Assembly (NCBI RefSeq): GCF_000211475.1
Contig: NC_015474.1
Location: 868,001-932,000 of the forward strand
Direction of reading: 5' to 3'
DNA: 64,000 nucleotides
Source of the DNA: Pyrococcus sp. NA2
GTDB lineage: Archaea > Methanobacteriota_B > Thermococci > Thermococcales > Thermococcaceae
Part shown: one piece after another, positions 25,800 to 40,903 of the stretch
Position numbering within the stretch: position 1 is the stretch's first letter
How the letters are laid out: each line of letters starts with the position of its first letter
Notes under the pieces: model-generated
What the model saw: only the letters and a program-made list of their open reading frames with translations
Told to the model about the DNA's origin: nothing
The model's database searches: none
Position numbers and translations under genes: made by a program

Positions 25800-26735
25800 G
25801 CTTGCTCTTAATGTTTGTAAATCGAAAGGATGAGCTATCACTTCTTGAGTCACTCAGGAGCTTCTGATTCTCTACGGATACAGGCAAATTGGAAAAATGG
25901 AACTTGTGAAAAATTTATCCAGGGAAAAAGCGCAATCTACTTCTTAGCTGACAGGGAAGGGTCTGAAGTCAAGCGAGGCGATTTTATTGCGAGGTAGCAG
26001 ATGTTCTTGGACTTCCAAAACTTGAGGTACGGGATTTTAGAGAGGCATTTGATAGACAAAATCCTCGACGACCGCATAACTCAAACTTAAATCTCTGAAC
26101 CTCTTTCACGTTCGAGAGTACTTCAAAAACTCACCCATCGAAACTATCGTTAGAATATACTCCGTTACCGGTGGCGTTCCGATGTACTTCCGGCCCTTTA
26201 AGGAAAAACTTTGAGGAGGAGCTCCTTAGAATACTTGAGAACGCTGATGTCCCTGGAGCTCGTGAGGCGTGAGGTTCCAGTCACCGAATCGGAGAAGAGC
26301 GAGAAGACCTGCTATTTACCAACTTAGCCTTTTGGTTTTTGCTTTGTTAAACCTAACCGCAGAAAGATAGAAATTGGAACCTTCGAGAGGGGATTGAGAG
26401 GCTTTCAACACCTATGTGGGAGAGGTCTTTGAGGATATAGCCAGGCAGTTTTTAATCGAACTCAACAAACTCGGAAAGCTTCCTTTGGCATAAAAATGAA
26501 GAAATAGACTCTGTGGCCTTGAGCGGGAAAAGGGTTTGTTCGTTGAGGTTAAGTGGAAAAGCCTAAGCGAGAGGGAAGTACGTGGAATTTTAAGGAATTT
26601 GGAGAGAAAAGTGAGCTCGTTGAATTTGATGATCGTGTTGTTTATGGAATTAGTTACTAAGAGAGTTGAAGGAAAAGAGGGCTCAAGAGGGAAGACTAGT
26701 TAGTTTGGGATTCGACCGACTTCGAAATGTTTATA
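25800..26735 (+). pseudogene. Degenerate ATPase-DUF234 gene
   Basis: Fragments in changing frames match the intact copy downstream in order. They are FVNRKDELSLLESL and LILYGYRQIGKMELVKNL (Walker A with Thr/Ser replaced by Met), then VTGGVPMYF, NTYVGEVFEDIARQFLIELNKLGKLP, and WHKNEEIDSVAL with VEVKWKSLSEREVRGILR (each given as recognisable parts). It ends near LVWDSTDFEMF at ~26730. Multiple stops and frameshifts make it a pseudogene. It lies immediately upstream of the intact copy at 26760. Confidence 0.8.
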
Positions 26736-26744
26736 ACTTCAAAA

Positions 26745-26779
26745 AACTTACTCTTGAGTATGATACTCACGAGTAAGTT
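26745..26779. promoter_or_regulatory. 35-bp near-perfect palindrome over the ATPase start
   Basis: The arms AACTTACTC and GAGTAAGTT flank inner arms TGAGTAT/ATACTCA. Only one base pair and the central base break symmetry. The ATG at 26760 lies inside it, and a TATA-like GTTTATAAC (~26729-26737) precedes it. The symmetrical size fits a dimeric DNA-binding protein. Confidence 0.65.
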
Positions 26780-28139
26780 CGTTGATAGGAAGGCCGAGCT
26801 GAACTTCCTCAAGGAGCGCTACAACTCTGGGAAGGCCGAGCTGATAATCCTCTACGGGCGGAGGAGAATCGGGAAGACATACCTACTGATGAAGTTCCTG
26901 GATGAAGTCGGTGGGCTTTATCTCCTGGCTGAAGAGAACGAGATGAACCTCGAGGACTTTTCCACGAGACTGGCTGAGTACTTCAACGACCCCTTCCTAA
27001 AGGAAAATCCGATTCGGAGCTGGGGGGCCTTCTTCACCTATCTCGCTGGAAAGAGCAGGGAGAGACTCGTGGTGGTCATTGACGAGGTTCAATATCTCGC
27101 TAAGGCCGAAAAGAGCTTCCTCAGCACGCTTCAGAAATACTGGGATCTGTATTTGGCTAACACGAAAATAATGCTGATTCTTTGTGGTTCGCTCGGTTCA
27201 TTCATGGAGGGGATTCTCTCCGCGAAGTCGCCGATCTACGGGAGGAGAACGGGAGCGTGGAAGGTGGGAGAAATAGACTTCTTTAATTTGCTCAAATTCC
27301 ACCCTCTCGATATAGAAACCGCCATTAAGGTCTATGCAGTCTTTGGTGGCGTCCCCCAGTACTGGGCGGACTACGATCCAGAGAAGGACTTCTGGGATAA
27401 TATAAGGACATTAATCCTCTCGAAGGGGGCCAAGTACTACGACGAGCCGAAATATCTCCTCAAGGAGGAGCTTAGGGATGTTTCGAGATATTTCTCGATT
27501 CTTCGCGCCATAGCTCTCGGCTACACGCGCTTCGGCCAGATAGCAGATAAAGCGAAGATAGAAACTAAGAGCCTCGGTAAGTACCTCAACGTTCTGGAGG
27601 AGATGGGTTACATCAGGGAGGAAAAGCCCGTCGTGGGGAGGGGGAGAACAGTTTACAGGATAAATGACAATCTCTTCAACTTCTGGTTCCGCTTCGTCTT
27701 TCCGAGGAGGGACGAGATAGAGATGGGTTTCGACGTGGTTGAAGAGATAAGGGAGGAGTTTAACACCTATGTGGGACAGGTCTTCGAAGATATAGCCAGG
27801 CAGTTTTTGATTGAGTTGAATAGGGCGAGAAAACTTCCCTTCAGGTTCACTAAAATCGGTCGCTGGTGGCATAAAAACGAGGAGATAGATCTCGTTGCTT
27901 TGAACGAGCGGGAGAAGAAGGCTTTGTTCGTGGAAGTGAAGTGGAAGGAATTGAGCGATAGGGAAGTGCGTGGAATTTTAAAGGATTTAGAGAGAAAAAG
28001 CGAGCTCGTTGGACTTGAGAGCTGGAAGAAAAGTTATGGTCTTGTAGGGAAGAGGGTTGAAGGAAAGGAGGGGCTCAGGGAAGAGGGGTGGCTAGTGTGG
28101 GACTTAGAAGAGTTTGAAGGGCTTATAAAAAGTGCATGA
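26760..28139 (+). CDS. Archaeal ATPase with wHTH and DUF234 (PD-(D/E)XK-like) domain
   Basis: The ~459-aa protein begins FVDRKAELNFLKERY. Walker A ILYGRRRIGKTYLLMKF (~27) and Walker B VVVIDEVQYL (~110) form the ATPase, followed by a sensor ILCGSLGSFM (~140). A winged helix (~250-310, GQIADKAKIETKSLGKYLNVL) precedes the C-terminal DUF234 domain (~350-459). That domain contains RWWHKNEEIDLVALNERE and ALFVEVKWKELS, whose ID...EVK spacing matches PD-(D/E)XK nucleases. ATG 26760 fits the family length better than the 26727 start. The function, possibly genome defence or selfish regulation, is unknown. Confidence 0.85.
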   Translation: MILTSKFVDRKAELNFLKERYNSGKAELIILYGRRRIGKTYLLMKFLDEVGGLYLLAEENEMNLEDFSTRLAEYFNDPFLKENPIRSWGAFFTYLAGKSRERLVVVIDEVQYLAKAEKSFLSTLQKYWDLYLANTKIMLILCGSLGSFMEGILSAKSPIYGRRTGAWKVGEIDFFNLLKFHPLDIETAIKVYAVFGGVPQYWADYDPEKDFWDNIRTLILSKGAKYYDEPKYLLKEELRDVSRYFSILRAIALGYTRFGQIADKAKIETKSLGKYLNVLEEMGYIREEKPVVGRGRTVYRINDNLFNFWFRFVFPRRDEIEMGFDVVEEIREEFNTYVGQVFEDIARQFLIELNRARKLPFRFTKIGRWWHKNEEIDLVALNEREKKALFVEVKWKELSDREVRGILKDLERKSELVGLESWKKSYGLVGKRVEGKEGLREEGWLVWDLEEFEGLIKSA

Positions 28140-28184
28140 GTTCCAAAAGTTACCCCCAGCACAAGCAGTTACCAAAACTGTTAA

Positions 28185-28217
28185 AATGATAATTGTCATT
28201 ATGATAATGGTGATTAT
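28185..28217. promoter_or_regulatory. Two inverted repeats upstream of ATPase 28221
   Basis: AATGATAATTGTCATT (28185-28200) and ATAAT-GGTG-ATTAT (28204-28217) lie in front of the ATG at 28221. A TATA-like GTTAAAATG (~28180) precedes them. The second element is nearly identical in sequence and in distance to the ATG to the one before the antitoxin at 57391. Confidence 0.55.
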
Positions 28218-28220
28218 TAT

Positions 28221-29588
28221 ATGCCCCCATTTGTTGACAGAAGGGAGGAATTCAAGGCCCTTAAAGAGCGTTTAACGAGCAACAACTTTGAGCTTATCGT
28301 CATTTATGGGCGGAGGAGGGTGGGGAAGACTCGCCTTGTCCTCGAAGCCGTTAAAGACCTTCCCCACGTCTACTATCTGGCGGTTGAAGGCGACAATCTG
28401 AGGCACTTTCGAGAAACCGCTGAGAGAGTGTTTCCGGAAGTTAGATACTCTCGAGAAGATTGGGAGGGGACCCTACATGCCCTAAGAGGGAAAATCATTG
28501 TTATCGACGAGTTCCCGAACCTGATAAAGGAAAATCCTCAGATTCTCTCACTCCTCCAGAGGGTCATAGACTTGGACTTATCGAATTCTAACACCAAGAT
28601 CGTTCTCCTTGGCTCCTCGGTAAGTATGATGACCGAGAAGGTTCTGAGCTACAAGAGCCCCCTCTACGGCAGGAGAACCGGCTCGATGAAGCTCAAACCA
28701 ATGAACTTCTTTTCCCTCAAGGAGTTCTTTCCCAAAGCTAGTTGGGAGGAGCTCGTCGAGATCTATGGTATGACCGATGGAATTCCCTTCTACATAACCC
28801 AGGTTAAGCTCCCCTTCTGGAAGTGGCTGGAGGAAGAGCTTTCCAGCCCGGTGAGCTTCTTCAGGGACGAGGTGGATTTTCTCCTGAAGTACGAGTTCAG
28901 CGAGGTGAGCACCTACAAGAGAATTCTTGAGGCGATAGCCCTCGGAAAGACGACCCCCAAGGAGATAAGGGACTTCACAGGCCTGAGGCATTCGGATATA
29001 AGCCCCTACCTCAGGAATCTGATCGAGGCCGACCTAATAGTGAGGGAGGTGCCAGTTACCGATAAAAGGACATCAAAGAGAGGGCGCTACTATATTGCCG
29101 ACAACTTCCTAGCTTTTTGGTTTAGATTCATCTTCCCGAACCTCTCGCGCATAGAGGAGGGGACGTTCAGCGTTGAGGAGATAAGGGACTCCTATGACCA
29201 TTACCTTGGCTTTGTTTTTGAGAAGGTGGCGAGGCAGTATTTGGTAAAGCTCAATAAAGCCGGTGAACTTCCCTTTAAGTTCACTAAAATCGGCCGCTGG
29301 TGGCATAAAAATGAAGAGATCGATCTGCTCGCCCTGAATGAGTGGGAGAAAAAGGCTCTGTTCGGTGAGGTTAAGTGGAAGAAGCTTAGCGAGAGGGAAG
29401 TACGTGGAATTTTAAAGGATTTGGAGAGAAAAAGCGAGCTCGTTGGACTGGAAGGATGGGAAAAGCATTACGGTCTAGTGGCTAAGGAAATCCAGAATAA
29501 AAGTGCACTGAAAAGCGAGGGTTGGCTTGTATGGGATTTGGAGGATTTCGAAAGGCTTGCTTCTCCTGGGAGAATCTCCTACCTTTGA
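28221..29588 (+). CDS. Archaeal ATPase with wHTH and DUF234 (PD-(D/E)XK-like) domain
   Basis: The 455-aa protein has FVDRREEFKALKERL at the N-terminus, Walker A IYGRRRVGKTRLVLEA (~28), Walker B IVIDEFPNL (~97), the GRRTGSMKL region, and a wHTH (~245-300, RDFTGLRHSDISPYLRNL). The DUF234 domain has WWHKNEEIDLLALNEWE (~360) and ALFGEVKWKKLS. The nuclease-like half is closely related to those at 26760 and 31308, while the N-terminal half differs. Preceded by a distinct operator. Role unknown. Confidence 0.85.
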   Translation: MPPFVDRREEFKALKERLTSNNFELIVIYGRRRVGKTRLVLEAVKDLPHVYYLAVEGDNLRHFRETAERVFPEVRYSREDWEGTLHALRGKIIVIDEFPNLIKENPQILSLLQRVIDLDLSNSNTKIVLLGSSVSMMTEKVLSYKSPLYGRRTGSMKLKPMNFFSLKEFFPKASWEELVEIYGMTDGIPFYITQVKLPFWKWLEEELSSPVSFFRDEVDFLLKYEFSEVSTYKRILEAIALGKTTPKEIRDFTGLRHSDISPYLRNLIEADLIVREVPVTDKRTSKRGRYYIADNFLAFWFRFIFPNLSRIEEGTFSVEEIRDSYDHYLGFVFEKVARQYLVKLNKAGELPFKFTKIGRWWHKNEEIDLLALNEWEKKALFGEVKWKKLSEREVRGILKDLERKSELVGLEGWEKHYGLVAKEIQNKSALKSEGWLVWDLEDFERLASPGRISYL

Positions 29589-29774
29589 TATAATGCCCAA
29601 GATAGAAGAACTGAGTTGTGCTTGCAGTAATGCATTGTTGGGATAACAAGAAGGTCTATCTTCTACCATACAACTTTCTTCTTTCTCATACCTCCGATAC
29701 AGGGGCAACTCCTCACAATATGAGTGACAAGGCCGAAATATCGATTAAGCTCTGACCCTTCAATTTTTAAACCC

Positions 29775-29827
29775 TGAGAACTCATACTTCTCAATCTTTA
29801 TAAAGGATTGAGAACTATAACTTCTCA
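29775..29827. promoter_or_regulatory. Two 19-bp inverted repeats flanking the TATA box of ATPase 29837
   Basis: TGAGAA-7 nt-TTCTCA occurs at 29775-29793 and again at 29809-29827, 34 bp apart. Between them lies the TATA box CTTTATAAAG (~29796-29805), and the ATG (29837) follows 10 bp after the second. The two copies have different central bases, so this is an evolved operator pair and not a simple duplication. Confidence 0.7.
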
Positions 29828-29836
29828 GGTATTCAT

Positions 29837-31030
29837 ATGAGGCTGGGCGATCTCACCTACATGAACCCCTGGTGGGAAGGGAGAGAGGACTACCACGTGA
29901 GGCGCTGGAGGGAACAGAGGTTACACTGGCGGCCGAAATGGCTGGAAAGGCTTTCGCTTAGGCCGTTCTCACTTAACTTCGTCCTCGGCCCGAGGCAGGT
30001 TGGAAAAACGACGGGAATAAAGCTCATGATCCAGGAACTCCTGAAAGATAACCCACCCGAGGCCGTTCTCTACATCAACGTCGAGGTTCTTCCAAGCCAC
30101 CACGAGCTCTTAAACCTCCTCCGTGAGTTCCAGGAGCTTAAAGAGAAGGAAGGCATCAAGATAGGATATGTCTTTCTCGACGAAGTGACTTCCCTTGAGG
30201 GCTGGTGGCGCGGGGTTAAACCGCTCATAGATGCTGGCCTTCTAGAGAGGGATGTGATTACGGTTACGGGCTCAAGCTCCCTGAGGGTCAGGAGGGACAT
30301 TGAACTCTTTCCGGGCAGGAGAGGGGGCGGAAGGATCATAGAGGTCATGCCCCTTTCCTTTCCAGAGTACTTAGAAATTAGGGGACTCAAGAAGCCGGAA
30401 CTTCACAGGGGGAAAGTCCTGAAGCTCTTCGAAGAGTATCTGACTACCGGCGGATTCCCGGGAGCAATAAACGGCCTTCCAATGGATGATCTCCTCGGGG
30501 CGTATATAGGAGATATTGTCCGCTTTGGTAAGAGTCTTGAGATAGCGAAGGAAACCTTTGCGGCGGTGATAAGGAGCGCTCCCTCGGCGACGAGCTTTAG
30601 GACTCTGGCCGGAATGACCTCCGGCTACTCCTACAAGGTGGTTCAGGACTATATAGAGTTTTTCACCGAGCTTTACATCCTTGGGATAGCCTATCTCAAG
30701 CAGGGAAATCAGATCATGTATAAGCGTGAGAAGAAGTTCTTCTTCCGTGATCCTCTCTTGGCGAGGCTCTTTGCGCTGTGGAGTGGGACAGAGCTGAGGG
30801 AAGATGCCCTCTACGAGTGGATCGTTCAAGAGCATCTATACCGTTGTTTTGGGGAGGTTTACTACTACCGGAACTCCTACGAGATCGATGCGATAGCAGG
30901 AAATCTTAAGGTAGAGGTAAAGGCCGGAAAGGCTCATAGGAAGTACCCGAAAAACGTAAGGGTGCTGGAGAAGGAGGATGTACCCTTCTTTCTGCTTGAA
31001 CTTACTCATGAGGGTACTTCTCGATTTTAA
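29837..31030 (+). CDS. AAA_14/DUF4143-type ATPase
   Basis: The 397-aa protein carries MNPWWEGREDYHVRRW, Walker A FVLGPRQVGKTTGIKLM (~55), Walker B VFLDEVTSLEGWWR (~115) and TGSSSLR (~148), then GRRGGGR with a FPEYLEIRG region. The C-terminal DUF4143-type part ends in YRNSYEIDAIAGNLKVEVKAGK, where ID...VEVK matches a PD-(D/E)XK-like core. It is shorter than its relatives but shows no frameshift. Operator copies precede it. Confidence 0.85.
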   Translation: MRLGDLTYMNPWWEGREDYHVRRWREQRLHWRPKWLERLSLRPFSLNFVLGPRQVGKTTGIKLMIQELLKDNPPEAVLYINVEVLPSHHELLNLLREFQELKEKEGIKIGYVFLDEVTSLEGWWRGVKPLIDAGLLERDVITVTGSSSLRVRRDIELFPGRRGGGRIIEVMPLSFPEYLEIRGLKKPELHRGKVLKLFEEYLTTGGFPGAINGLPMDDLLGAYIGDIVRFGKSLEIAKETFAAVIRSAPSATSFRTLAGMTSGYSYKVVQDYIEFFTELYILGIAYLKQGNQIMYKREKKFFFRDPLLARLFALWSGTELREDALYEWIVQEHLYRCFGEVYYYRNSYEIDAIAGNLKVEVKAGKAHRKYPKNVRVLEKEDVPFFLLELTHEGTSRF

Positions 31031-31111
31031 GGCTAGGAGTATTGAGTATTATAGAAGGCTTGAGCCAACTAAATGGTTTAAAAGTTCGAAATTTGGCAAA
31101 TTGGGAGTAGT

Positions 31112-31225
31112 GATGGTTGGGAGAAGAGTTATGGAATAGTTGCTAAGAGGGTTGAAGGGAAGGAAGAACTGAATGAAGAGGGTTACTGTTTTTGGGATCT
31201 GGAGGATTTTGAGCAGATTCAATGA
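31112..31225 (+). pseudogene. C-terminal remnant of a DUF234 ATPase
   Basis: The frame reads DGWEKSYGIVAKRVEGKEEL followed by NEEGYCFWDLEDFEQIQ, matching the last ~38 residues of the proteins at 26760 and 31308. No N-terminal part is present. It sits directly before the ATPase at 31308 and shows that copies were lost or recombined here. The open frame starting at 31173 reads through it in another phase and is not its own gene. Confidence 0.75.
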
Positions 31226-31307
31226 ACTGACAATCAGATCAGAGGAAGGGTCAATAACCTCTTACCTGGCGAAACCTTTTTTATTCATTTCGACTTGTAA
31301 TTATATT

Positions 31308-32678
31308 ATGAGGATTCGAAAATTTGTCAACCGCGAGAAGGAGCTCGAAACCCTGGAAAGGCTTTACGGGAGAGAAGGTTTTACTCTCGTCCTCGTTACT
31401 GGTAGGAGAAGGATCGGGAAGAGCAGGCTTGTTAGAGAGTTTTTAAAGGGAAAAAATGCCATAAGTGTTCAGTTCGAAAAGAGGCTCTGGGAGTACAATT
31501 TGAAGAAGCTTAACAAGGCTATAGGAGAACACTTTGGGATTCCAGCTCCAAACTTCTCCACCTTCAGTGATGCCTTCCACTTTATCGCCTCTCAGTCTAG
31601 GGAAAGGCTCATCGTATTCCTCGACGAGTTCTCCTACCTGCTCCGGTATTCTGAGGTGGAAGCCGAGTTCCAGAGTATAATTGATGAGATACTCCAGGAG
31701 AGCAATATTATGTTGATCCTCTCTGCTTCATCTGTTGGCCTGCTTAAGAGGAGCTTTTTCGAATACTCAAGCCCGCTCTACGGGAGGAGCGATGTCACAC
31801 TGAACCTCCAGCCCTTAGGCTTCAAGCATATCTTCGAGTGGTTTGAGGATATCTCACCAGAGGACGCCGTGAAAGTCTATGCAGTAACCTCCGGCGTTCC
31901 CCGCTACCTTGAGCTTTTCGAGGGAAGGAATGTTGATGAAGAAATCAAGGCCAACTTCTTCGACCCAAACGCCTTCCTCTTCCGCGAGGCCAAAGAGCTG
32001 CTTGAAGAGGAGTTTAGGGAGCCTGAAACGTACTACACCCTGCTTGAGGCGATAGCTAAGGGAAAGACGAGGGTGAACGAGATAGCTCAGCATGCCTTCC
32101 TTGAGCCCAAGAATACAGCAAGATACTTGAGGATACTTGAAGATCTTGGAATACTAAAGAGGGAGCTTCCCGTTGGGAGGAAGGCGAAGAGGGGTATCTA
32201 CCGCTTTAAAGATTTGTATTTTGCTTTCTGGTTTAGGTTTGTCGCCCCTTACTTCGAGGAGATAGAGAGCGGCTTCCCAGAAGGTGCGCTGGAAGACTTT
32301 AACGCAAACTTCAACCGCTACCTAGGCTACGCTTTCGAAGAGATAGCTAAGCAGTTTTTAATCGAAATCAACCGAGCTGGAAAGCTTCCCTTTAAGTTCA
32401 CTAAAATCGGTCGCTGGTGGCATAAAAACGAGGAGATAGATCTCGTTGCTTTGAACGAGCGGGGGAAGGGGGCTTTGTTCGTGGAAGTGAAGTGGAAAGA
32501 TTTGAGCGAGAGGGAAGCTAAGAGAATTTTGAAGGACTTGGAGAGGAAATCTAGATTGGTTGGACTGGAAGGGTGGGAGAAGTGGCATGGATTGGTTGCT
32601 AAGGGGATTGAGGGGAAGGAGGAACTTAGAGAAGAGGGTTTTCTGGTCTGGGACTTGGGGGATTTTGAAATATTTTAG
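31308..32678 (+). CDS. Archaeal ATPase with wHTH and DUF234 (PD-(D/E)XK-like) domain
   Basis: Starting at ATG 31308 the product is 456 aa: KFVNREKELETLERLYG, Walker A VTGRRRIGKSRLVREF (~27), Walker B IVFLDEFSYL (~103), ILSASSVGLL (~140), a wHTH (~250-300), then RWWHKNEEIDLVALNERG and ALFVEVKWKDLS. The frame continues upstream to 31173 but those residues are junk overlapping a remnant. The ~68 bp coding for the nuclease motif (32396-32463) are identical to 27845-27912. No palindrome as clear as in the neighbours was seen upstream. Confidence 0.83.
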   Translation: MRIRKFVNREKELETLERLYGREGFTLVLVTGRRRIGKSRLVREFLKGKNAISVQFEKRLWEYNLKKLNKAIGEHFGIPAPNFSTFSDAFHFIASQSRERLIVFLDEFSYLLRYSEVEAEFQSIIDEILQESNIMLILSASSVGLLKRSFFEYSSPLYGRSDVTLNLQPLGFKHIFEWFEDISPEDAVKVYAVTSGVPRYLELFEGRNVDEEIKANFFDPNAFLFREAKELLEEEFREPETYYTLLEAIAKGKTRVNEIAQHAFLEPKNTARYLRILEDLGILKRELPVGRKAKRGIYRFKDLYFAFWFRFVAPYFEEIESGFPEGALEDFNANFNRYLGYAFEEIAKQFLIEINRAGKLPFKFTKIGRWWHKNEEIDLVALNERGKGALFVEVKWKDLSEREAKRILKDLERKSRLVGLEGWEKWHGLVAKGIEGKEELREEGFLVWDLGDFEIF

Positions 32679-32824
32679 ACTGGAGTGGCTGGCCTTCGTT
32701 CTGCCTTTAGAGTGAGGGCAGGGGAGGAGATCAGTTAGTTCTCAACTACATAAGGGAGCAGAAGTTTGAAAAGCCTTTACGAGGCTTTAAGCTGGTTCAA
32801 TACATTCTCGTCCTTTTACTCTTT

Positions 32825-32908
32825 TGTGAAAGTGCATTTTCACAGCTTTCCCATTTTATGAAAGCAAACTTTCACAAATCTTATAAACTATGAAAGCCCA
32901 CCTTCACA
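32825..32908. promoter_or_regulatory. Triple 20-bp inverted repeat, 32-bp period, before ATPase 32910
   Basis: Copies of the pattern T(G/A)TGAAAG-N-CTTTCACA (the first ends TTTTCACA, the third CCTTCACA) occur at 32825-32844, 32857-32876 and 32889-32908. Starts are exactly 32 bp apart. The TATA box CTTATAAAC (~32880-32888) sits between copies two and three, and the ATG follows copy three. Three sites on one face of the helix suggest cooperative repression. Confidence 0.75.
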
Positions 32909-32909
32909 C

Positions 32910-34232
32910 ATGGCAGTTAAGATAGTTAAGCTCATCAGGCACAATCCCTGGTGGAAGGGCGAAGGGTGGGAGGCAGAAGACCCGGACCTCTCAAAGGTAC
33001 CTAAAGGAGATAGGATACCTCGTAGGACGGTGAGATTGAAAAATGGGGAAATAACTCTTATACGGGGCGTTAGGAGGGCTGGAAAGAGCTTTTATCTCAA
33101 GACTATCATAGAGTCTCTCGTGAGGGAAGTTGACCCCTTAAAGGTGGTTTACATCCCCTGCGACCGCTTCACGAAGAGGGAAGTTAAGGGCTTCATAGAC
33201 GAGCTGAGGAGGAGGCACGGTGAAATATGTCTCTTCCTCGACGAGATAACGTACCTCAAAGACTGGAGGCTTCTCTTGAAGGAACTTGGCGAGGAAGGCA
33301 TCACAACAGTCGCCACTGGCTCAAACCCGGTTGAGCTCAAGAAAGAGAGCGAGCTACTCCCAGGGAGGGGAATAGAGGGCAATGAGTACTACTTCAACCC
33401 CCTCAACTTCAGGGAGTTCGCCCGCTACATGAACGACCGATTTCCCGATGTTGCTTTTACTTACAGGAACCCTGAGGTGGATAAGATTCTTCCCTGGTTC
33501 GAGGAGCTGGATGGTCTGTTTTATGCCTACCTCCAGACTGGTGGCTTTCCGGAGGCGGTGCTCGAGTTCAGGAAAAAGGGTAGGGTGAGCGAGGAGCGCT
33601 ACGAGGAGTTCATAAGGCTCGTCCTGGGCGAAATCGCGAAATCTGGAAAGAGCGAGGAGATAGCCAGGGAAATTCTTGAGACAGTTCTCAATCTGAAGGG
33701 CAACAGGGTGGACTACGTGAGCATAGCTAAGAAAGTTGGAGTTTCGCATCCAACGGTTAGGGAGTATCTCTCGACCCTCGAGAGCGCAAGGTTAATTTAT
33801 ACTCTCGAAGCTTGGGACGTCTCAAAGAAGCACCACGCCCACAGGAAGGAGAAGAAGATAGTCTTCCAGAGCCCACTGATAGCTTTGTCCCTGGCGAAGT
33901 ATATAGGAGAGGATCCCTTTGAGTTTCTTGAGGAAAACATCGAGTGGCTGGTTGAGGGAACTGTTGCCACACACGTTATATGGTCCCTTGAAGAACCAAT
34001 AATCCGGGAGAAGCACTCGTTTGCTGGCTTTTACTACGATTCAAGCAAGGAGTGTGACATTGTGATAAAAGAGGGCGGGAAGTTCTTCGGGATTGAGGTC
34101 AAGTACGGCGAGGTCAAGCGGAAGAGGTATCCCTTCCAGACCATATACATCTCGAAGGACGAAGTTGGCGAGGACGTGTATCCCGTTTCCCTCTACCTCT
34201 ACGGGCTGGAGAAAAGCGGGAGGTCAATATGA
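32910..34232 (+). CDS. AAA_14/DUF4143-type ATPase
   Basis: The 440-aa protein has an N-terminal RHNPWWKGEGWE, Walker A LIRGVRRAGKSFYLKTI (~50), Walker B LFLDEITYLKDWR (~107), VATGSNPVELKK (~132) and a central wHTH (~275-305, VSIAKKVGVSHPTVREYL). The C-terminal part has SSKECDIVIKEGGKFFGIEVKYG, a PD-(D/E)XK-like core. It is regulated by the triple repeat directly upstream. Role unknown. Confidence 0.87.
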   Translation: MAVKIVKLIRHNPWWKGEGWEAEDPDLSKVPKGDRIPRRTVRLKNGEITLIRGVRRAGKSFYLKTIIESLVREVDPLKVVYIPCDRFTKREVKGFIDELRRRHGEICLFLDEITYLKDWRLLLKELGEEGITTVATGSNPVELKKESELLPGRGIEGNEYYFNPLNFREFARYMNDRFPDVAFTYRNPEVDKILPWFEELDGLFYAYLQTGGFPEAVLEFRKKGRVSEERYEEFIRLVLGEIAKSGKSEEIAREILETVLNLKGNRVDYVSIAKKVGVSHPTVREYLSTLESARLIYTLEAWDVSKKHHAHRKEKKIVFQSPLIALSLAKYIGEDPFEFLEENIEWLVEGTVATHVIWSLEEPIIREKHSFAGFYYDSSKECDIVIKEGGKFFGIEVKYGEVKRKRYPFQTIYISKDEVGEDVYPVSLYLYGLEKSGRSI

Positions 34233-34269
34233 TAACCTTAAGGTCAGAAACAAAACCTAAGGCTCAATG

Positions 34270-35244
34270 CTAACCCTTGGGCGTGAAAATTACGATGTAT
34301 TTGTTGGGGCCCGGACCTCTCCCACCGACTATGTATATCCTCCGACCGTCCCACCCTCCCGGAGCCTGCCCAAGAGGATACGGAAGGGTTCCAACTCTTG
34401 TTAGGATATTATTCTCGGGAACGAAGAGGTAGATGTTACGGCTGAAATTAACGTTGTCGTCAAAGCCACCAAAGATGTATATTCCCTTGCCAGTCGCAAC
34501 CGCCGTTCTGGCCCAGTATTTGTCGGGAAGCCTAACCTGTGCCCAGACAAGGCTTTTCGAGAAAGGATCGAAGACCGCTATCCTATCGCCGTGTACGAGG
34601 TATCCCTTACCCTTGTACCACACTGCTGCATACTGTGAAGTTCCCGGAAAGACGAAACCCTCTGGAAAACCGAGATCGAGACGTTGGAACTTCTTTGCAT
34701 AGGGGTCAAATGAATAGGCGGAGAGGTTTCCATTTAGAAATCTAACGAAGAGATAAGCCTTTGAGCCGTCCCAGAGGAGGGAGAGCTGATCGTAGTCCCT
34801 AAAGGGCATCTCCGCGAATTTCTTCATGCTCCCGTTTTCAGGGTTATAAGCGTAAACGACCGGGATTAGGGTGATGTTACCGGGATTCATGCCTCCAAAG
34901 AGCAACACTTCATTGTCTATCCACAAAGCAGGCACATCTACCACGAAGGGCACGTCGAGCTTTCCAATCAGCTCCGACTTTCCATCCTTCAACCGATACA
35001 CCCTATGCTCAACCCGCTCTCCCTTAACCAAAACCTTAAGACTCATCATGAAGGTCGAGTTGTCCACCTTCACAAAAAACCCGTTTCCAAGTCCTATGAG
35101 AACATCGTGGTCAATTTCTGTGAGTTCAATATTATTAGTGACTTGCATGCTATCCGGTTTAGATCCGAAGGAATTCCACGCCCAATGTCCAGCTATTCCC
35201 AATATCAGAAGAAAAAAGAGAGTCAAGAGCAAACCACGCTTCAT
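34270..35244 (-). CDS. Kelch-like propeller protein with N-terminal anchor
   Basis: The ~324-aa product has one N-terminal membrane helix (RGLLLTLFFLLILGIAGHWAW), and then repeats that look like Kelch blades (IYIFGGFDD, RRIYIVGGRGPG). It is probably outside the membrane, anchored at the N-terminus. A GGGGTGG site precedes the second ATG, my preferred start. Family not certain; the ligand is unknown. It is the only clearly intact gene between two ATPase genes. Confidence 0.68.
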   Translation of the reverse strand: MKRGLLLTLFFLLILGIAGHWAWNSFGSKPDSMQVTNNIELTEIDHDVLIGLGNGFFVKVDNSTFMMSLKVLVKGERVEHRVYRLKDGKSELIGKLDVPFVVDVPALWIDNEVLLFGGMNPGNITLIPVVYAYNPENGSMKKFAEMPFRDYDQLSLLWDGSKAYLFVRFLNGNLSAYSFDPYAKKFQRLDLGFPEGFVFPGTSQYAAVWYKGKGYLVHGDRIAVFDPFSKSLVWAQVRLPDKYWARTAVATGKGIYIFGGFDDNVNFSRNIYLFVPENNILTRVGTLPYPLGQAPGGWDGRRIYIVGGRGPGPNKYIVIFTPKG

Positions 35245-35384
35245 GTCATCCACCCCAATAAAACGGTATAGTTAGAGTTTTTCCGTTTAGATATTTGACT
35301 TTTTCCCTGGTTATACACATGAAACGGAACAAAAAGTCAGACGTTGTTCCATTTCCAAAGTCCCACATTATGGAGAGGGCCTCA

Positions 35385-35821
35385 TCATACGTCTCTAGTA
35401 AAGACACAAACAAATAACCATTGATCTCTGGAACATATCACCCGCACTGCGTCTTTGGTTAGGGTGGGAGGTCTTTGGACATAAAATCCCTTAATAACCA
35501 AGATTAGTGCCCGCTTCATTCTCCTAGATAAAGCGGGAGGAACCTTAAAGTTTAGTATTATATTGTCCCCTAGCGTCAAGACAGCGTAATGTCTATCATC
35601 CTCTAAGAGTTTCTCTGTGATTTGTGATTTCTCTCCCTATATCCGAGGTAGCTAATTCCTTTTACAACATGATAAGAGGCATTTACGAGGATTCCATTTA
35701 TACTTAAGAGTATATTATGTTCCAAGTCAACATTGCTACTTGCAATTTCCGTTGTAAATGAAGCATAATTAAAAAGCCACCCATCACATCCAAGAACCTT
35801 TTTAAACTTCAAAACTCCCAA
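35385..35821 (-). pseudogene. Frameshifted remnant of an unidentified gene
   Basis: On the minus strand the coding-like text VLKFKKVLGCDGWLFNYASF...GISYLGYRE shifts frame near 35635 and continues EKSQITEKLLEDDRHYAV and LGDNIILNFKVPPALS, ending with a string that no longer looks coding (~35385). No start codon fits before 35821. I do not recognise the family; a secreted or propeller protein is possible because the neighbour at 34270 is one. Confidence 0.45.
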
Positions 35822-36064
35822 CCATGCTCGAAAGACTTTCAGCCTCGATTACTCCAACGAACTCTGAGGCGAAAGGAAAAGGGCCTTAGCGTTTGCCGAG
35901 GGTTCCTGTCAAGGTGCTCCCCCTGTGAACATACTAAGAATAGAGGTTTCAAAGCTCATAAAACTCCTCAACAAGAAGGACTTCCAGTTCAAGAGTCCCT
36001 GGGCGAGAGGGGCTTTAGTGATGTTATGTTGGTTTAATGCTCGAAAAGTTGGGCAAGTTTACAA

Positions 36065-36088
36065 AACAACTATTTATAAATAGTTGTT
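36065..36088. promoter_or_regulatory. Perfect 24-bp palindrome upstream of ATPase 36136
   Basis: The half-site AACAACTATTTA is followed by its exact complement in reverse. TTTATAAATA, a TATA-like core, lies in its middle, and the same TTTATAAATA recurs at 36106-36115, 33 bp further, close to the ATG at 36136. The first copy could be an operator overlapping an upstream promoter. Confidence 0.6.
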
Positions 36089-36135
36089 CAATATACTGGA
36101 CAAGGTTTATAAATAATGCTGAGGTATTAACCCCT

Positions 36136-37425
36136 ATGAGGGAAGATTTAGCCAAGGTTTTGGTGGAATGGCAGGAAACATGGACGCCCGAGCTCGTCGA
36201 GAGGGACTTTGACCTCTCCCTGATTCCGGATAAACCGAGAAAGGTTGTAACCTTCGCAGGTTGCCGGAGGGTCGGCAAAACCTACCTCATGTTCCAGCTC
36301 ATCAACGAATTGTCAAAAAAGGTTCCGAAGGAGGAGATATTCTACGTCAACTTCGAGGACGAAAGGCTTGAAAAGAAGGTTGAAACCCTAACCGAGCTCA
36401 TCCCAACGATAGAGGAGCTTTATGGAAGGAAAGAAAGGCTATACCTCTTTCTGGACGAAATACAGAACATTCCAAACTGGGATTCATGGGTGAGGAGAGT
36501 TCACGATTCGAGGAAGGATGTGAGACTCTTCCTGAGCGGTTCCTCCTCAAAGCTGTCAAGCAGAGAGATCCCGACATCACTCAGGGGCAGGGCGCTGACA
36601 TTTGAAGTTTTTCCTCTGAGCTTCCGGGAGTTTCTTAGGTTCAAGGGTTTTGAAATGCCGGAGAAACTGGATTTCAGCTCGAAGAAGCCGGTTCTCCTTA
36701 ACCTGTTGAGGGAGTACGTCCTTTACGGAGGCCTTCCCGAGGTTATTCTAACCGAAGACGTGAGGATTAAGAGGCTAATCGTCAGGGACTACTTCAACAC
36801 GATAATAGCCCTCGATATTGTGGAGAGGTATTCAATCAGAAATCCTGAAGAGCTCAGGGCATTCATCAGGCTTCTCCTTAACTCTGAGTACGTAAGCCTA
36901 AGTAAAATCGCTAAGACGATGAAGAGCATGGGCTATTCAATATCCAAATCAACCCTCGCAAACTACCTGAGGTACCTTGAGGAGTGCTACTTTGCATTTC
37001 CCCTTGAGGTTTATTCCCCAAAGGTAAAGCTCAGAATGCAGCACCCCAGAAAGATATACTTCATTGACACATCGTTCCTGACGTTTTTGAGCGTAAAGTT
37101 CAGCGAGAACATGGGGAGACTTATGGAGAACACGGTTTTCATCGAGCTTCTCAGGCGTGGAAAGGAGGTTAACTATGCTCTCGGGGAGAACTGGGAGGCT
37201 GATTTCGTTCTACCAGAGGAAGAAACCCTCATACAGGTTAGCTACGATGTTAGTGATGAGGAAACGCTAAGGCGTGAGGTGAATGCGCTAAGGAAGGCAT
37301 CAAGGGAATTCGACTTTAAAAATGCTTTGTTGATTACGTGGGATTCCGAAGGGAGGATAGAGGAGTGGAGAGTTACGATAGAGATCGTTCCATTGTGGAA
37401 ATTCCTGATTGGGGATTATACTTGA
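36136..37425 (+). CDS. AAA_14/DUF4143-type ATPase
   Basis: From ATG 36136 the protein is 429 aa: EDLAKVLVEWQETWTPELV, Walker A FAGCRRVGKTYLMFQL (~44), Walker B LFLDEIQNIPNWDSWVRRV (~105), LSGSSSKLSSREIPTSLRGR (~130), DUF4143 region from ~250. The acidic end NWEADFVLPEEETLIQVSYD has Gln-Val-Ser where the nuclease Glu-x-Lys would be, so this copy is probably not a nuclease. The frame runs upstream to 36037 but that includes the operator. Confidence 0.83.
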   Translation: MREDLAKVLVEWQETWTPELVERDFDLSLIPDKPRKVVTFAGCRRVGKTYLMFQLINELSKKVPKEEIFYVNFEDERLEKKVETLTELIPTIEELYGRKERLYLFLDEIQNIPNWDSWVRRVHDSRKDVRLFLSGSSSKLSSREIPTSLRGRALTFEVFPLSFREFLRFKGFEMPEKLDFSSKKPVLLNLLREYVLYGGLPEVILTEDVRIKRLIVRDYFNTIIALDIVERYSIRNPEELRAFIRLLLNSEYVSLSKIAKTMKSMGYSISKSTLANYLRYLEECYFAFPLEVYSPKVKLRMQHPRKIYFIDTSFLTFLSVKFSENMGRLMENTVFIELLRRGKEVNYALGENWEADFVLPEEETLIQVSYDVSDEETLRREVNALRKASREFDFKNALLITWDSEGRIEEWRVTIEIVPLWKFLIGDYT

Positions 37426-37684
37426 TCGGCAGGGAGATCCGATAACAGGAGCTAGGAGTGGGAGGAGTTTTGGCAATACCTTAGAATCTCTAGCGGTGAG
37501 AAAGCAGAGGGAAAACGGGACTTTCAAAGCTTCCACACTAATCCAAAGTTTGAAGTCCTGTTGTTTATGGAATATTAGGAGGGAGAGCTGGTTAGTTTGA
37601 GGTTTAATATTTTGATAGGCCGGGGATCACTAGAGGTGCTAACTAATGTCTGCCACATCTTCCTAATAAAATAAGGTGATGAAC

Positions 37685-37930
37685 ATGAAACATATCGTGT
37701 TAAAAAAGAACATACTTCCTGGCCAGTGGTAGTATTGTTGGGAACCTTGATAGCTTAGACCCCTATAGTAGTGTTCTCACTTCTATCGATCGCTAAGGGA
37801 ATTGATGTTCCCTTACTAGTAGAAAAAGTCTCATCAAATGAAGCCACTGTTTTCAAAGCAACGCCACTGCTTATAATATTTAGATTTGGTATGTCAATCT
37901 CCCAAGGAGTAGGTCAGCTTAATAGGGACT
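37685..37930 (+). pseudogene. Broken secreted or membrane protein gene
   Basis: A GGTGAT ribosome site precedes ATG 37685, whose frame (MKHIVLKKNILPGQW) stops after 15 codons. Another frame continues VVVLLGTLIA, TPIVVFSLLSIAKGIDVPLL and VEKVSSNEATVFKATPLLII, like an N-terminal signal followed by a domain. It ends just before the IS-like end at 37958. No family was recognised. Confidence 0.4.
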
Positions 37931-37957
37931 GAAGAATGTTCCACATTACGCTTGGTC

Positions 37958-38006
37958 TTACATTTTCCTTTTGAAAGCCTCGCCCTTTAGGGCGGGAAGG
38001 ATGTCA
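37958..38006 (+). mobile_element. IS200/IS605-type right-end remnant (TnpB element)
   Basis: The 3' end shows TTACATTTTC, TTTTGAAAGCCTCGCCC, TTTAGGGCGGGAAGGATGTCAG: a stem with the loop CCCTTTAGGG. I know this from the tails of archaeal TnpB-only elements in Thermococcales, where it belongs to the guide RNA region. No tnpA or tnpB lies within 1 kb; it is an orphan end. A second copy at 58011-58050 is inverted. Confidence 0.5.
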
Positions 38007-38013
38007 GATAACT

Positions 38014-39168
38014 CTACTCTTGCATCTTCCTTAATATTATGGTGATCATGACAAGAATGATGGCCGTAAGGATAATAGTGTAGTGAGTTTTCTTCGGTTC
38101 TCCCTCTATGCTTAGATTAACAGTGGGAACTTTAAGCTTCACAGGAAATAACTTCATTTCAAGGGGTTCCTCTTTAAAGTTGATCCTGATGGCGTAGCAC
38201 TTCGTTGTTTCTTCGTTCTGTTTAAGTGGAATAGTTATTATCGTTCCATTCGATTGAACAATTAAAGAACCTTTTATTATCCCTATGGCCTTTTCAGAAA
38301 CGTTAAGATATGTAAGCGGGTCTCCTTCGGGGTTTATGATGAAAGTTCCTGTAGTTGTACTAAAGGTGCAGATCCCCCCGTTGCAGAAGGCTCTTCGTAT
38401 CTTCATAATCCAAAAGGCGTCCCAATCACTCTCTCCTGGACAGTGATAGGAGTTGAACCATTTTATCTTTCCTCCTTGTGATACCTTCAATGCGAAGTAA
38501 TCGGCTAACCAAGGTGCATCACTCCCTCCTCCGTAAACGCCTGCAACTATTCCTTCGCCGTTGACAACATCGGGGCGATCATAATAACCCGTATTGACTA
38601 TTTTGACCCAGAGAAGAGTTCCATTCAAGGAGAGAGCGCCAAGAAGGAGGTGGGACTTTGGATCATCATTGAGTCTGATAGTTCCAACTACGAGAATTGT
38701 TCCATTAAGAGGGCCAAGTAGCTTCAATTTGGTACCATTTGCAATGAATTTCCTGGCCCAGAGCAGGTTTCCGTCTGGATTAATCAGCCCAACGATGTTA
38801 TCCTTTAGAAACGCAACATGGCCATTGGGCAAACCAATGGCATCGTCAACGCTTATGTTTTTTGCCCAAACAACTTTTCCATTATTGTCAACTTTAGCCA
38901 GAACTTCATCAAGGAGAAGGACACCGTTATCGGAGGAGCTAAGGCGTTCAAAGCTTATTCCCTTAATTTGAACTTTCCAAACTGGCTTAATATTCTCATC
39001 CAGCCTTATGAGAGTGTTGTTCTCTTTTAGGGCGTATATTCCATCTGAGATAATGACATCCTTGAACAGCAAGTTGAAGCTGATACCCATTGCGTTCAAT
39101 GTGGAAGAGATCACTAGAATAAGTACCCCTAATATGGCCATAACAACTTTCCACTCCACAAGGTCCAT
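38014..39168 (-). CDS. Membrane-anchored PQQ-type propeller protein
   Basis: The 384-aa protein has an N-terminal helix (KVVMAILGVLILVISSTLNAMG), propeller-type blades (GIYALKENNTLIRLDENIKPVWKVQIKG, in parts GIYALKENNTLIRLDE and VWKVQI), and a C-terminal helix (THYTIILTAIILVMITIILRK). It is probably exposed outside and held at both ends. The stop lies 7 nt after the IS-like end at 38006. Family only inferred from repeats. The ATG is at 39168. Confidence 0.68.
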   Translation of the reverse strand: MDLVEWKVVMAILGVLILVISSTLNAMGISFNLLFKDVIISDGIYALKENNTLIRLDENIKPVWKVQIKGISFERLSSSDNGVLLLDEVLAKVDNNGKVVWAKNISVDDAIGLPNGHVAFLKDNIVGLINPDGNLLWARKFIANGTKLKLLGPLNGTILVVGTIRLNDDPKSHLLLGALSLNGTLLWVKIVNTGYYDRPDVVNGEGIVAGVYGGGSDAPWLADYFALKVSQGGKIKWFNSYHCPGESDWDAFWIMKIRRAFCNGGICTFSTTTGTFIINPEGDPLTYLNVSEKAIGIIKGSLIVQSNGTIITIPLKQNEETTKCYAIRINFKEEPLEMKLFPVKLKVPTVNLSIEGEPKKTHYTIILTAIILVMITIILRKMQE

Positions 39169-39511
39169 CCTCCCATAATTTCACGTTATATGTGCTAGGT
39201 GAGTTATCTTTATGATTTTTTCTATTTTTATTTTATTAAGTTAAGCTATTCCCAAGTCTTTAAAGTGTATTCTTCTCTTTAAATAACTTGAAAGGCATAA
39301 CTTTAAAGTTATAGATAATTTCATTAATCTATTGTTTTTGTCTTTTTTGTTGAAAAATGGTTGTTCCATAATCTTCTCAGTTCTCCCTAGATTTGTTAAG
39401 GCCCTTCTTACATTCAGGAGTCAATTAGGTTGCAAGTGGTGAGGTTAAGATTTCTTTTTAAATAATTATAAGGATCAAAGTTCCGTTAACATCCAACTAA
39501 GTTTACCTTTA
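39169..39511. other. Gene-free AT-rich stretch
   Basis: Between 39168 and the operator of the next ATPase I see no open frame, RNA gene or repeat. It is rich in A/T and T tracts and probably holds the promoter of the minus-strand gene at 38014-39168. Confidence 0.6.
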
Positions 39512-39573
39512 TTTTGACCTTTTGACATTTGGCTATCAGAGTATTTATATATACTTTGTTATCAAAATATCAA
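39512..39573. promoter_or_regulatory. Inverted array of TTTTGAC-type sites around the TATA box of ATPase 39584
   Basis: TTTTGAC-C-TTTTGAC (39512-39526) faces ATCAAAA-TATCAA (39561-39573), and the TATA box TATTTATATATAC (39542-39553) lies between. Each side holds two half-sites in tandem. Confidence 0.5.
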
Positions 39574-39583
39574 GGATATAAAA

Positions 39584-40903
39584 ATGGAGGACTTGATTGT
39601 CATACAAAATCCCTGGTGGATAGAGCCAAGTGTAATATACGAGGACGAACGTGTTAAAAAAGCCCTCTCCCAGGAACCTGGGATTGGCTACCGCTTTGAA
39701 CAAGTAAACAAGATCTTAATAGGCCCGAGACAGGTCGGTAAGACTACCTACATGAAGCTCTCCATAGCAAACCTTATTGAAGCAGGAGTCGACCCAAGAA
39801 ACATTCTCTACTTCTCGTGCGATCTCCTTAAAGACTATCGTGAGATAGTTTCCGTTGTCAAATCCTTTCTCCGTAGCATAAAGGGAAGGGCATACGTCTT
39901 TCTTGATGAGGTCACCTTCGTTGATAACTGGGAGCGAGCAGTTAAGTTCCTCCTTGATTCTCCTCTTGCCTCAAGGATGGTGCTTCAAGTTACGGGTTCG
40001 ACTTCAGCTGGGCTAAAGAAGGAGAGCTTTCCTGGAAGGAATATAAAGGTTGAGGAATTCCTTCCTCTTGACTTCAGGATGGTTTCCCTTATCTTTGAAC
40101 CAAAGCTAAAGAACCTCGAGCTTCCCCACAGGTTTCCAAGAACAAGTCTGGAATTCTACGAAAATGCTCTCGAACTCTATCCATATCTAGATGTCCTAAG
40201 CGGGGCACTAAACTTTTATCTCTCCTCTGGAGGTTATCCAAGGTCGATATATGAATCGCTGGAAGGTGGAATAACTTCGGAGACCTACGAGATGCTCTAC
40301 AATGCAACAATTTTCGACGTCGTTAAGTTGGGGAGGAGTGAGAGAATAGCCCTCCCAATAATACTGGGTCTCCTGCGCCGTTATGGCGATAGGATAACTC
40401 TTAACTCCATAGCTAAAGAGCTTGAAATTGGCTCTCATGTTACCGTGAGGGACTACCTTGAGCTCTTTGAAGAGCTTTTCATTGGGCGAAACTATTTCCA
40501 AATTAAACTTCACGATTTCACTCCGCTGTTTCGAAAGGAGCGCAAGTTTTACTTTACGGATCCACTAATACTTCAAACTTTCAAGAGAACTTTTGGAATC
40601 GGACCTGGCATTGATAGGATGATCGAGGGGATAGTCGGTGAGCACTTAAAGCGACTCTATCAAACTTACTTCTTCAGCGGTTCCAAGGAGGTGGACTTTG
40701 TGACACCTCACTTTGGAGTTGAGGTGAAGTGGAGAGGTAAAGTTAAGCCCTCGGACTTTCCAAGGGTTGGGATAAAAGAGAAGATACTCCTCTCAAGGGA
40801 CAAACTGGAGTTCATTGAAAGTAAAAACCTTGCAATAATTCCAGTTCCCCTATTCCTCTTCCAGCTTCAAACCTCGAGCTCTAGGATCATCTTAAGGTCA
40901 TAG
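39584..40903 (+). CDS. AAA_14/DUF4143-type ATPase
   Basis: The 439-aa protein contains IQNPWWIEPSV, Walker A LIGPRQVGKTTYMKLS (~48), Walker B VFLDEVTFVDNWERAV (~105), TGSTSAGLKKESFPGR (~138), a wHTH (~270-300) and SGSKEVDFVTPHFGVEVKWRGK, with the VD...VEVKW core of PD-(D/E)XK-like nucleases. It follows its own operator array. It stops 23 nt before the convergent RNR gene. Confidence 0.87.
   Translation: MEDLIVIQNPWWIEPSVIYEDERVKKALSQEPGIGYRFEQVNKILIGPRQVGKTTYMKLSIANLIEAGVDPRNILYFSCDLLKDYREIVSVVKSFLRSIKGRAYVFLDEVTFVDNWERAVKFLLDSPLASRMVLQVTGSTSAGLKKESFPGRNIKVEEFLPLDFRMVSLIFEPKLKNLELPHRFPRTSLEFYENALELYPYLDVLSGALNFYLSSGGYPRSIYESLEGGITSETYEMLYNATIFDVVKLGRSERIALPIILGLLRRYGDRITLNSIAKELEIGSHVTVRDYLELFEELFIGRNYFQIKLHDFTPLFRKERKFYFTDPLILQTFKRTFGIGPGIDRMIEGIVGEHLKRLYQTYFFSGSKEVDFVTPHFGVEVKWRGKVKPSDFPRVGIKEKILLSRDKLEFIESKNLAIIPVPLFLFQLQTSSSRIILRS

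Follow-up and report, generated by a model that had tools for sequence, protein, structure and literature searches.

We analysed a 64,000-nucleotide stretch of the Pyrococcus sp. NA2 genome (NC_015474.1, positions 868,001 to 932,000; hereafter the window, with positions counted from its first letter). At the locus studied here, three evenly spaced palindromes directly precede the gene of an AAA_14-DUF4143 ATPase and may form an operator array of this gene. The locus comprises the following features:

32825..32844, no strand assigned: palindrome 1, TGTGAAAGTGCATTTTCACA, 20 bp long and imperfect; the unit is conserved in 31/94 genomes of the family
32857..32876, no strand assigned: palindrome 2, TATGAAAGCAAACTTTCACA, on the side of the TATA box where the B recognition element (BRE) lies; its centre is at -43 from the ATG, and the register is the same in distant homologues
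32880..32887, plus strand: TATA box CTTATAAA, at -30 to -23 from the ATG and in the same place in the orthologues
32889..32908, no strand assigned: palindrome 3, TATGAAAGCCCACCTTCACA, by which the transcription start would be covered
32910..34232, plus strand: AAA_14-DUF4143 ATPase of 440 amino acids, a STAND-like NTPase by prediction that has a winged helix and, at its C-terminus, a PD-(D/E)XK-like motif; a candidate of the PADLOC family PDC-S01

A preliminary description of this DNA had reported three 20-bp sites at an exact 32-bp period with a TATA box between copies two and three, and both can be read directly from the start positions (32825, 32857 and 32889) and from CTTATAAA at 32880-32887. 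The TGAAAG/CTTTCA type that it had assigned to the sites is present as well, with the refinement that copies 1 and 3 carry one arm mismatch each and that the conserved unit is wider, a palindrome of about 24 bp (TTTRTGAAAGTNNACTTTCAYAAA) plus a spacer of 8 bp. The ATG at 32910 lies one base past palindrome 3, and the position of the TATA box suggests leaderless transcription of the ATPase gene. Exact matches to RTGAAAGNNNNNNTTCAC within the window are confined to the three palindrome positions. When the whole genome (G000; 1.86 Mb, one contig) was searched with a relaxed site, the three array positions and two scattered single sites were recovered, compared with four matches to the reversed control pattern; this search revealed no regulon of the array site elsewhere in the genome.

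Among the 94 Thermococcaceae genomes, 31 have at least two copies in the 32-bp register, and the reversed control pattern occurs in none (0/94). At 14 orthologous loci (protein identity 73-80%) the arms and the 32-bp spacing are retained while the inner bases drift, the distance between the end of the last palindrome and the ATG is constant, and the arrays contain two to five units, the two-unit case being truncated by a contig end. The kept arms, the kept spacing and the fixed distance to the ATG at these loci support the reading of the palindromes as operators. Pairwise differences among ATPase-bearing genomes amount to 0.056-0.062 in the arms, 0.50-0.53 in the four inner bases and about 0.3 in the spacers, which bears out the earlier observation that the middle bases vary while the arms hold (about 0.06 vs about 0.5). 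The preliminary description had made the array stand or fall with the conservation of arms and spacing in relatives; both are kept, and the feature survived the comparison. Its placement of all copies on the same helix face agrees with a step of 32 bp, which is three turns. Sister subfamilies, however, have steps of 34-35 bp (3.2-3.3 turns), and because of this the step looks as if it is set by the bound protein and not by a simple requirement for the same helix face.

Homologues in Aciduliprofundum, Thermoplasmatota and anaerobic methanotrophic archaea (ANME)/Methanosarcinia have arrays of their own before the ATG, built from other palindromes (TGATA or TGACA types and AGGCA in Thermoplasmatota; TTGGTAA in ANME, with about eight copies in L047). 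The best period was 32 in 21/21 homologues with at least 34% identity, and the 31 non-redundant sequences had best periods of 32 (10 sequences), 34 (10), 31 (2) and 33 (2), the rest being scattered singles; best periods of other genes spread across 24-45 in a first control set that still contained orphan arrays (arrays in genomes without the ATPase) and family members. Compared with 280 control promoters from which orphan arrays and family members had been removed, the non-redundant members of the 32-bp clade lay above the 99th percentile in 9/9 cases, with the single best control promoter (22.0) outscoring some of these nine. More distant clades use steps of 34 bp (TGGTCA, TGGTTA, TTGTCA and TGGTAT types), 35 bp (TTGTTAT) or 31 bp. 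Because 32 bp is kept down to 34% identity and steps of 34, 35 and 31 bp occur mostly in distant subfamilies, the period is characteristic of the ATPase clade; the site sequence drifts along with the protein, lineage by lineage. Within the 32-bp clade the centre of the last palindrome is mostly at -11 and that of the next at -43 or -44 (rows near -27 represent the same array in antiphase), and the register of the operator over the core promoter, around TATA box and ATG, is fixed in orthologues and distant homologues alike.

A functionless array that arose by chance or by simple tandem duplication is, in our estimation, practically negligible as an explanation. Some ANME units are identical, as if derived from slippage, but in many lineages complementarity of the arms is preserved despite differences in inner bases and spacers, the period agrees with the clade, and an array conserved in 31/94 genomes stands against a control pattern found in 0/94. 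As an origin of the array, chance or plain duplication was rejected on the basis of these genome counts together with the control promoters.

Of seven plasmid-borne bacterial homologues, two exceed the 95th percentile of shuffles with a palindrome pair before the gene: L226, from a Monoglobus plasmid, is clearly above it (period 40, 25.0 vs 20.5) and L227, from Lactobacillus, barely so (period 39, 21.0 vs 20.0). The remaining homologues do not exceed their shuffles, L228 (Moraxella) included, which also has a pair 39-40 bp apart before the gene. We treat the bacterial pairs as a lead only. A search for virus-borne copies in 2.9 million viral contigs gave 5 pattern matches, which were taken as chance, and no encoded relatives.

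The 440-amino-acid protein is composed of AAA_14 and DUF4143 domains and is matched by seven PDC-S01 models of PADLOC (best PDLC04787, E 2.8e-33); within the window, the gene at 36037 matches PDC-S01 best (E 9.4e-114), the ATPase at 32910 being a more distant member. In 46 homologues the Walker A and Walker B columns as well as E381, D383, E396 and K398 are invariant or nearly so, and the latter four residues read as a PD-(D/E)XK-like motif. An AlphaFold 2 (AF2) model from these 46 homologues, with a mean predicted local distance difference test score (pLDDT) of 90.5, has a predicted fold of nucleotide-binding domain, helical domain and winged helix that is STAND-like. The top rows of the VIA-align search were STAND proteins (Z 12-16), and the fold of residues about 6-342 resembles CED-4 (Z 16.1), PABY2304 (16.0), SSO1545 (15.3) and plant NLRs (about 15-16); the top Foldseek match of the model was Orc1/Cdc6 on origin DNA. 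Residues 215-307 are matched by the winged-helix models of Csa3 and LrpA, with scores that stay under the curated cut-offs of these models, and a sequence search of solved structures yielded no clear relative.

Array and ATPase also move together. In most ATPase-bearing Thermococcus genomes the ATPase gene lies between or near genes which, by sequence resemblance, we take to be argF and an RNA 5-methylcytosine (m5C) methyltransferase gene. In the window genome it occupies a different locus, and 1.6 kb downstream of it lies the decayed remnant of a methyltransferase gene:

35794-36015, plus strand: degenerate 5' part of an RNA m5C methyltransferase gene together with its TTTTTAAAC promoter, directly upstream of the AAA_14 open reading frame at 36037

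This relic matches Thermococcus genes at up to 83% and does not match the window genome's own intact copy (G000:C1:1834757). In G008, a methyltransferase fragment comes after array and ATPase; it is 87% identical to Thermococcus G039 and 71% identical to G008's own gene. This indicates that the block was transferred horizontally, and its array with it. A different repeated element (TTTAGGCACCTCCTGCTTAA, in near-identical copies) was observed in L053 and L058 between ATPase and methyltransferase, about 150 bp upstream of the latter.

Orphan arrays of at least two units occur in 19 genomes, mostly directly before the methyltransferase promoter (e.g., L012 1501-1580 and L020 1501-1580). ATPase and orphan states interleave on a tree of argF plus methyltransferase, which requires at least five changes each, and G054 has a 42-residue ATPase remnant next to its array. 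Selection on the orphans gives a mixed picture, with arms retained in some and decaying in others: eight orphans fused to the methyltransferase promoter differ by 0.036 in the arms vs 0.33 in the inner bases and 0.41 in the spacer, and those of G015, G047, G049, G060 and G069 are decayed. The orphans may reflect recent loss, an exchange between the two alleles, or an additional function close to the methyltransferase. The alternating presence and absence of the ATPase at the argF-methyltransferase locus with the array retained, and the transfer of the block between genera, could also point to the array as the end or insertion site of a mobile ATPase-carrying block, with the palindromes serving recombination. 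However, palindromes are found on one side of the gene only, the block contains no recombinase, and homologues at unrelated loci in other phyla keep the same register to the ATG; we regard this explanation as very unlikely.

We consider it probable that the array is the cognate operator of its own gene and that the ATPase binds it and represses itself. The ATPase is the most likely ligand because the period follows its clade, sites and protein co-diverge, array and gene move together, and the genome has no other targets of the site; half-site similarity correlates with whole-protein similarity at r = 0.50 (no significance computed). Repression would be the most likely outcome since filled sites would cover the BRE/TATA region and the expected start. 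In such a scheme, one ATPase dimer would probably occupy each 24-bp palindrome and neighbouring units would be packed at the fixed step of the clade (32 bp here), with the BRE side of the TATA box under copy 2 and the expected transcription start under copy 3, so that a filled array would block TBP/TFB and RNA polymerase and keep the ATPase scarce. A trigger (a change in nucleotide state, a phage-made change, or the protein being drawn to another target) would then empty the array and raise expression.

Several observations speak against self-repression by the ATPase. The 19 genomes without the ATPase retain array copies, several with intact arms, which would be unexpected for a dedicated ligand unless the loss were recent or the alleles exchanged; a few distant homologues have no clear array; and the winged-helix domain of STAND proteins usually makes no DNA contact. 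Moreover, the recognition-helix segment has no more explanatory power for half-site differences than other parts of the protein (partial r -0.13, in a weak test, a partial Mantel analysis of 30 half-sites curated by eye). Both this lack of a special co-variation of recognition helix and site and the persistence of orphan arrays beside the methyltransferase gene in ATPase-less genomes would suit a separate host transcription factor that binds the array and controls the ATPase gene, e.g., by turning its expression on or off in response to infection or stress. Yet the palindromes differ among lineages and among paralogues of one genome, the site is without other targets in the window genome, and the period tracks the ATPase clade. 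In every lineage such a regulator would need to change along with the ATPase; we hold this explanation to be unlikely.

In a further, unlikely, scenario the array is a parking and sensing platform on which the predicted ATPase-nuclease would stand in an ordered row at the clade-specific step, and its departure, when phage DNA or a phage factor competes, would arm the enzyme and switch on the gene. It is quite doubtful that the array mainly serves the putative ATPase-nuclease for docking or sensing, as a self site where the enzyme is stored or its action timed, with transcription control as a side effect. ANME arrays of up to about eight copies go beyond the need of repression and STAND proteins act as ordered oligomers, but the array always lies in a fixed register over the core promoter, as suits transcription control.

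The ATPase gene at 32910 is part of a larger group of related genes, one of which has palindromes of a different type:

29775-29827: palindromes TGAGAACTCATACTTCTCA and TGAGAACTATAACTTCTCA (TGAGAA...TTCTCA), 34 bp apart around the TATA box TTTATAAA, before the AAA_14 gene at 29837
26727-40890: cluster of archaeal ATPases, with AAA_14/DUF4143 genes at 29837, 32910, 36037 and 39596 and ATPase_2/DUF234 genes at 26727, 28221 and 31173

The AAA_14 gene at 29837 is a second ATPase with its own putative operator pair, and another paralogue in this genome (L219, at G000:C1:957661) has TTGGTAAT...ATTACCAA-type palindromes, again 34 bp apart. With several different palindrome sets in one genome, any one host regulator would need to recognise every set. 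The apparent ATG frame of L219 meets an early stop (MIEQFNPW, then TAG), and this gene is perhaps a recent pseudogene. The cluster is possibly a defence island. Overlapping TGATAAT/ATTATCA-like repeats at 28180-28220, before the ATPase_2/DUF234 gene at 28221, are perhaps a compact operator of another ATPase family.

According to PMC12988326, PDC-S01 consists of an ATPase joined to a PD-(D/E)XK member and ranks fourth by frequency among the defence entries of prokaryotes, with validation pending for most such defence candidates. PDC-S01-type ATPases are among the commonest putative prokaryotic defence genes (PMC12988326). The window ATPase matches the family profiles and has the AAA_14 and DUF4143 domains; an operator array is not mentioned in the passages of PMC12988326 that were consulted. 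We infer a role in defence for the ATPase, whose family is a widespread candidate for antiviral defence. The literature searched offered no mechanism for PDC-S01-type ATPases, and a conserved, lineage-specific candidate DNA target provides a substrate for binding, structure and swap experiments. Residues about 6-342 share their fold with the STAND NTPases (CED-4, plant NLRs, archaeal PABY2304 and SSO1545), and archaeal Orc1/Cdc6, which reads inverted repeats, is the best Foldseek match of the model; the window ATPase differs from both in its C-terminal PD-(D/E)XK-like part, and identity is only 10-21%. Natural pairs of protein and site could be used to learn how a STAND-type protein could read DNA.

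Autoregulation via tandem operators is an already known kind of arrangement; tandem operators with a clade-specific step and lineage-specific sites were not found for this ATPase family in the literature searched. Autoregulatory operators of defence genes include those of restriction-modification C proteins, toxin-antitoxin operators and those of the BrxR/CapW repressors, and the window locus resembles them in having palindromes over the promoter of the regulator's own or a linked gene or operon. The regulators in these systems are small, dedicated DNA-binding proteins, whereas the ATPase locus is without a separate regulator gene and its sites are probably read by the effector-type ATPase itself. 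A further difference from these systems lies in the arrays of the ATPase family, which comprise 3-8 copies at a clade-specific step, and this step (31, 32, 34 or 35 bp) distinguishes the ATPase subfamilies.
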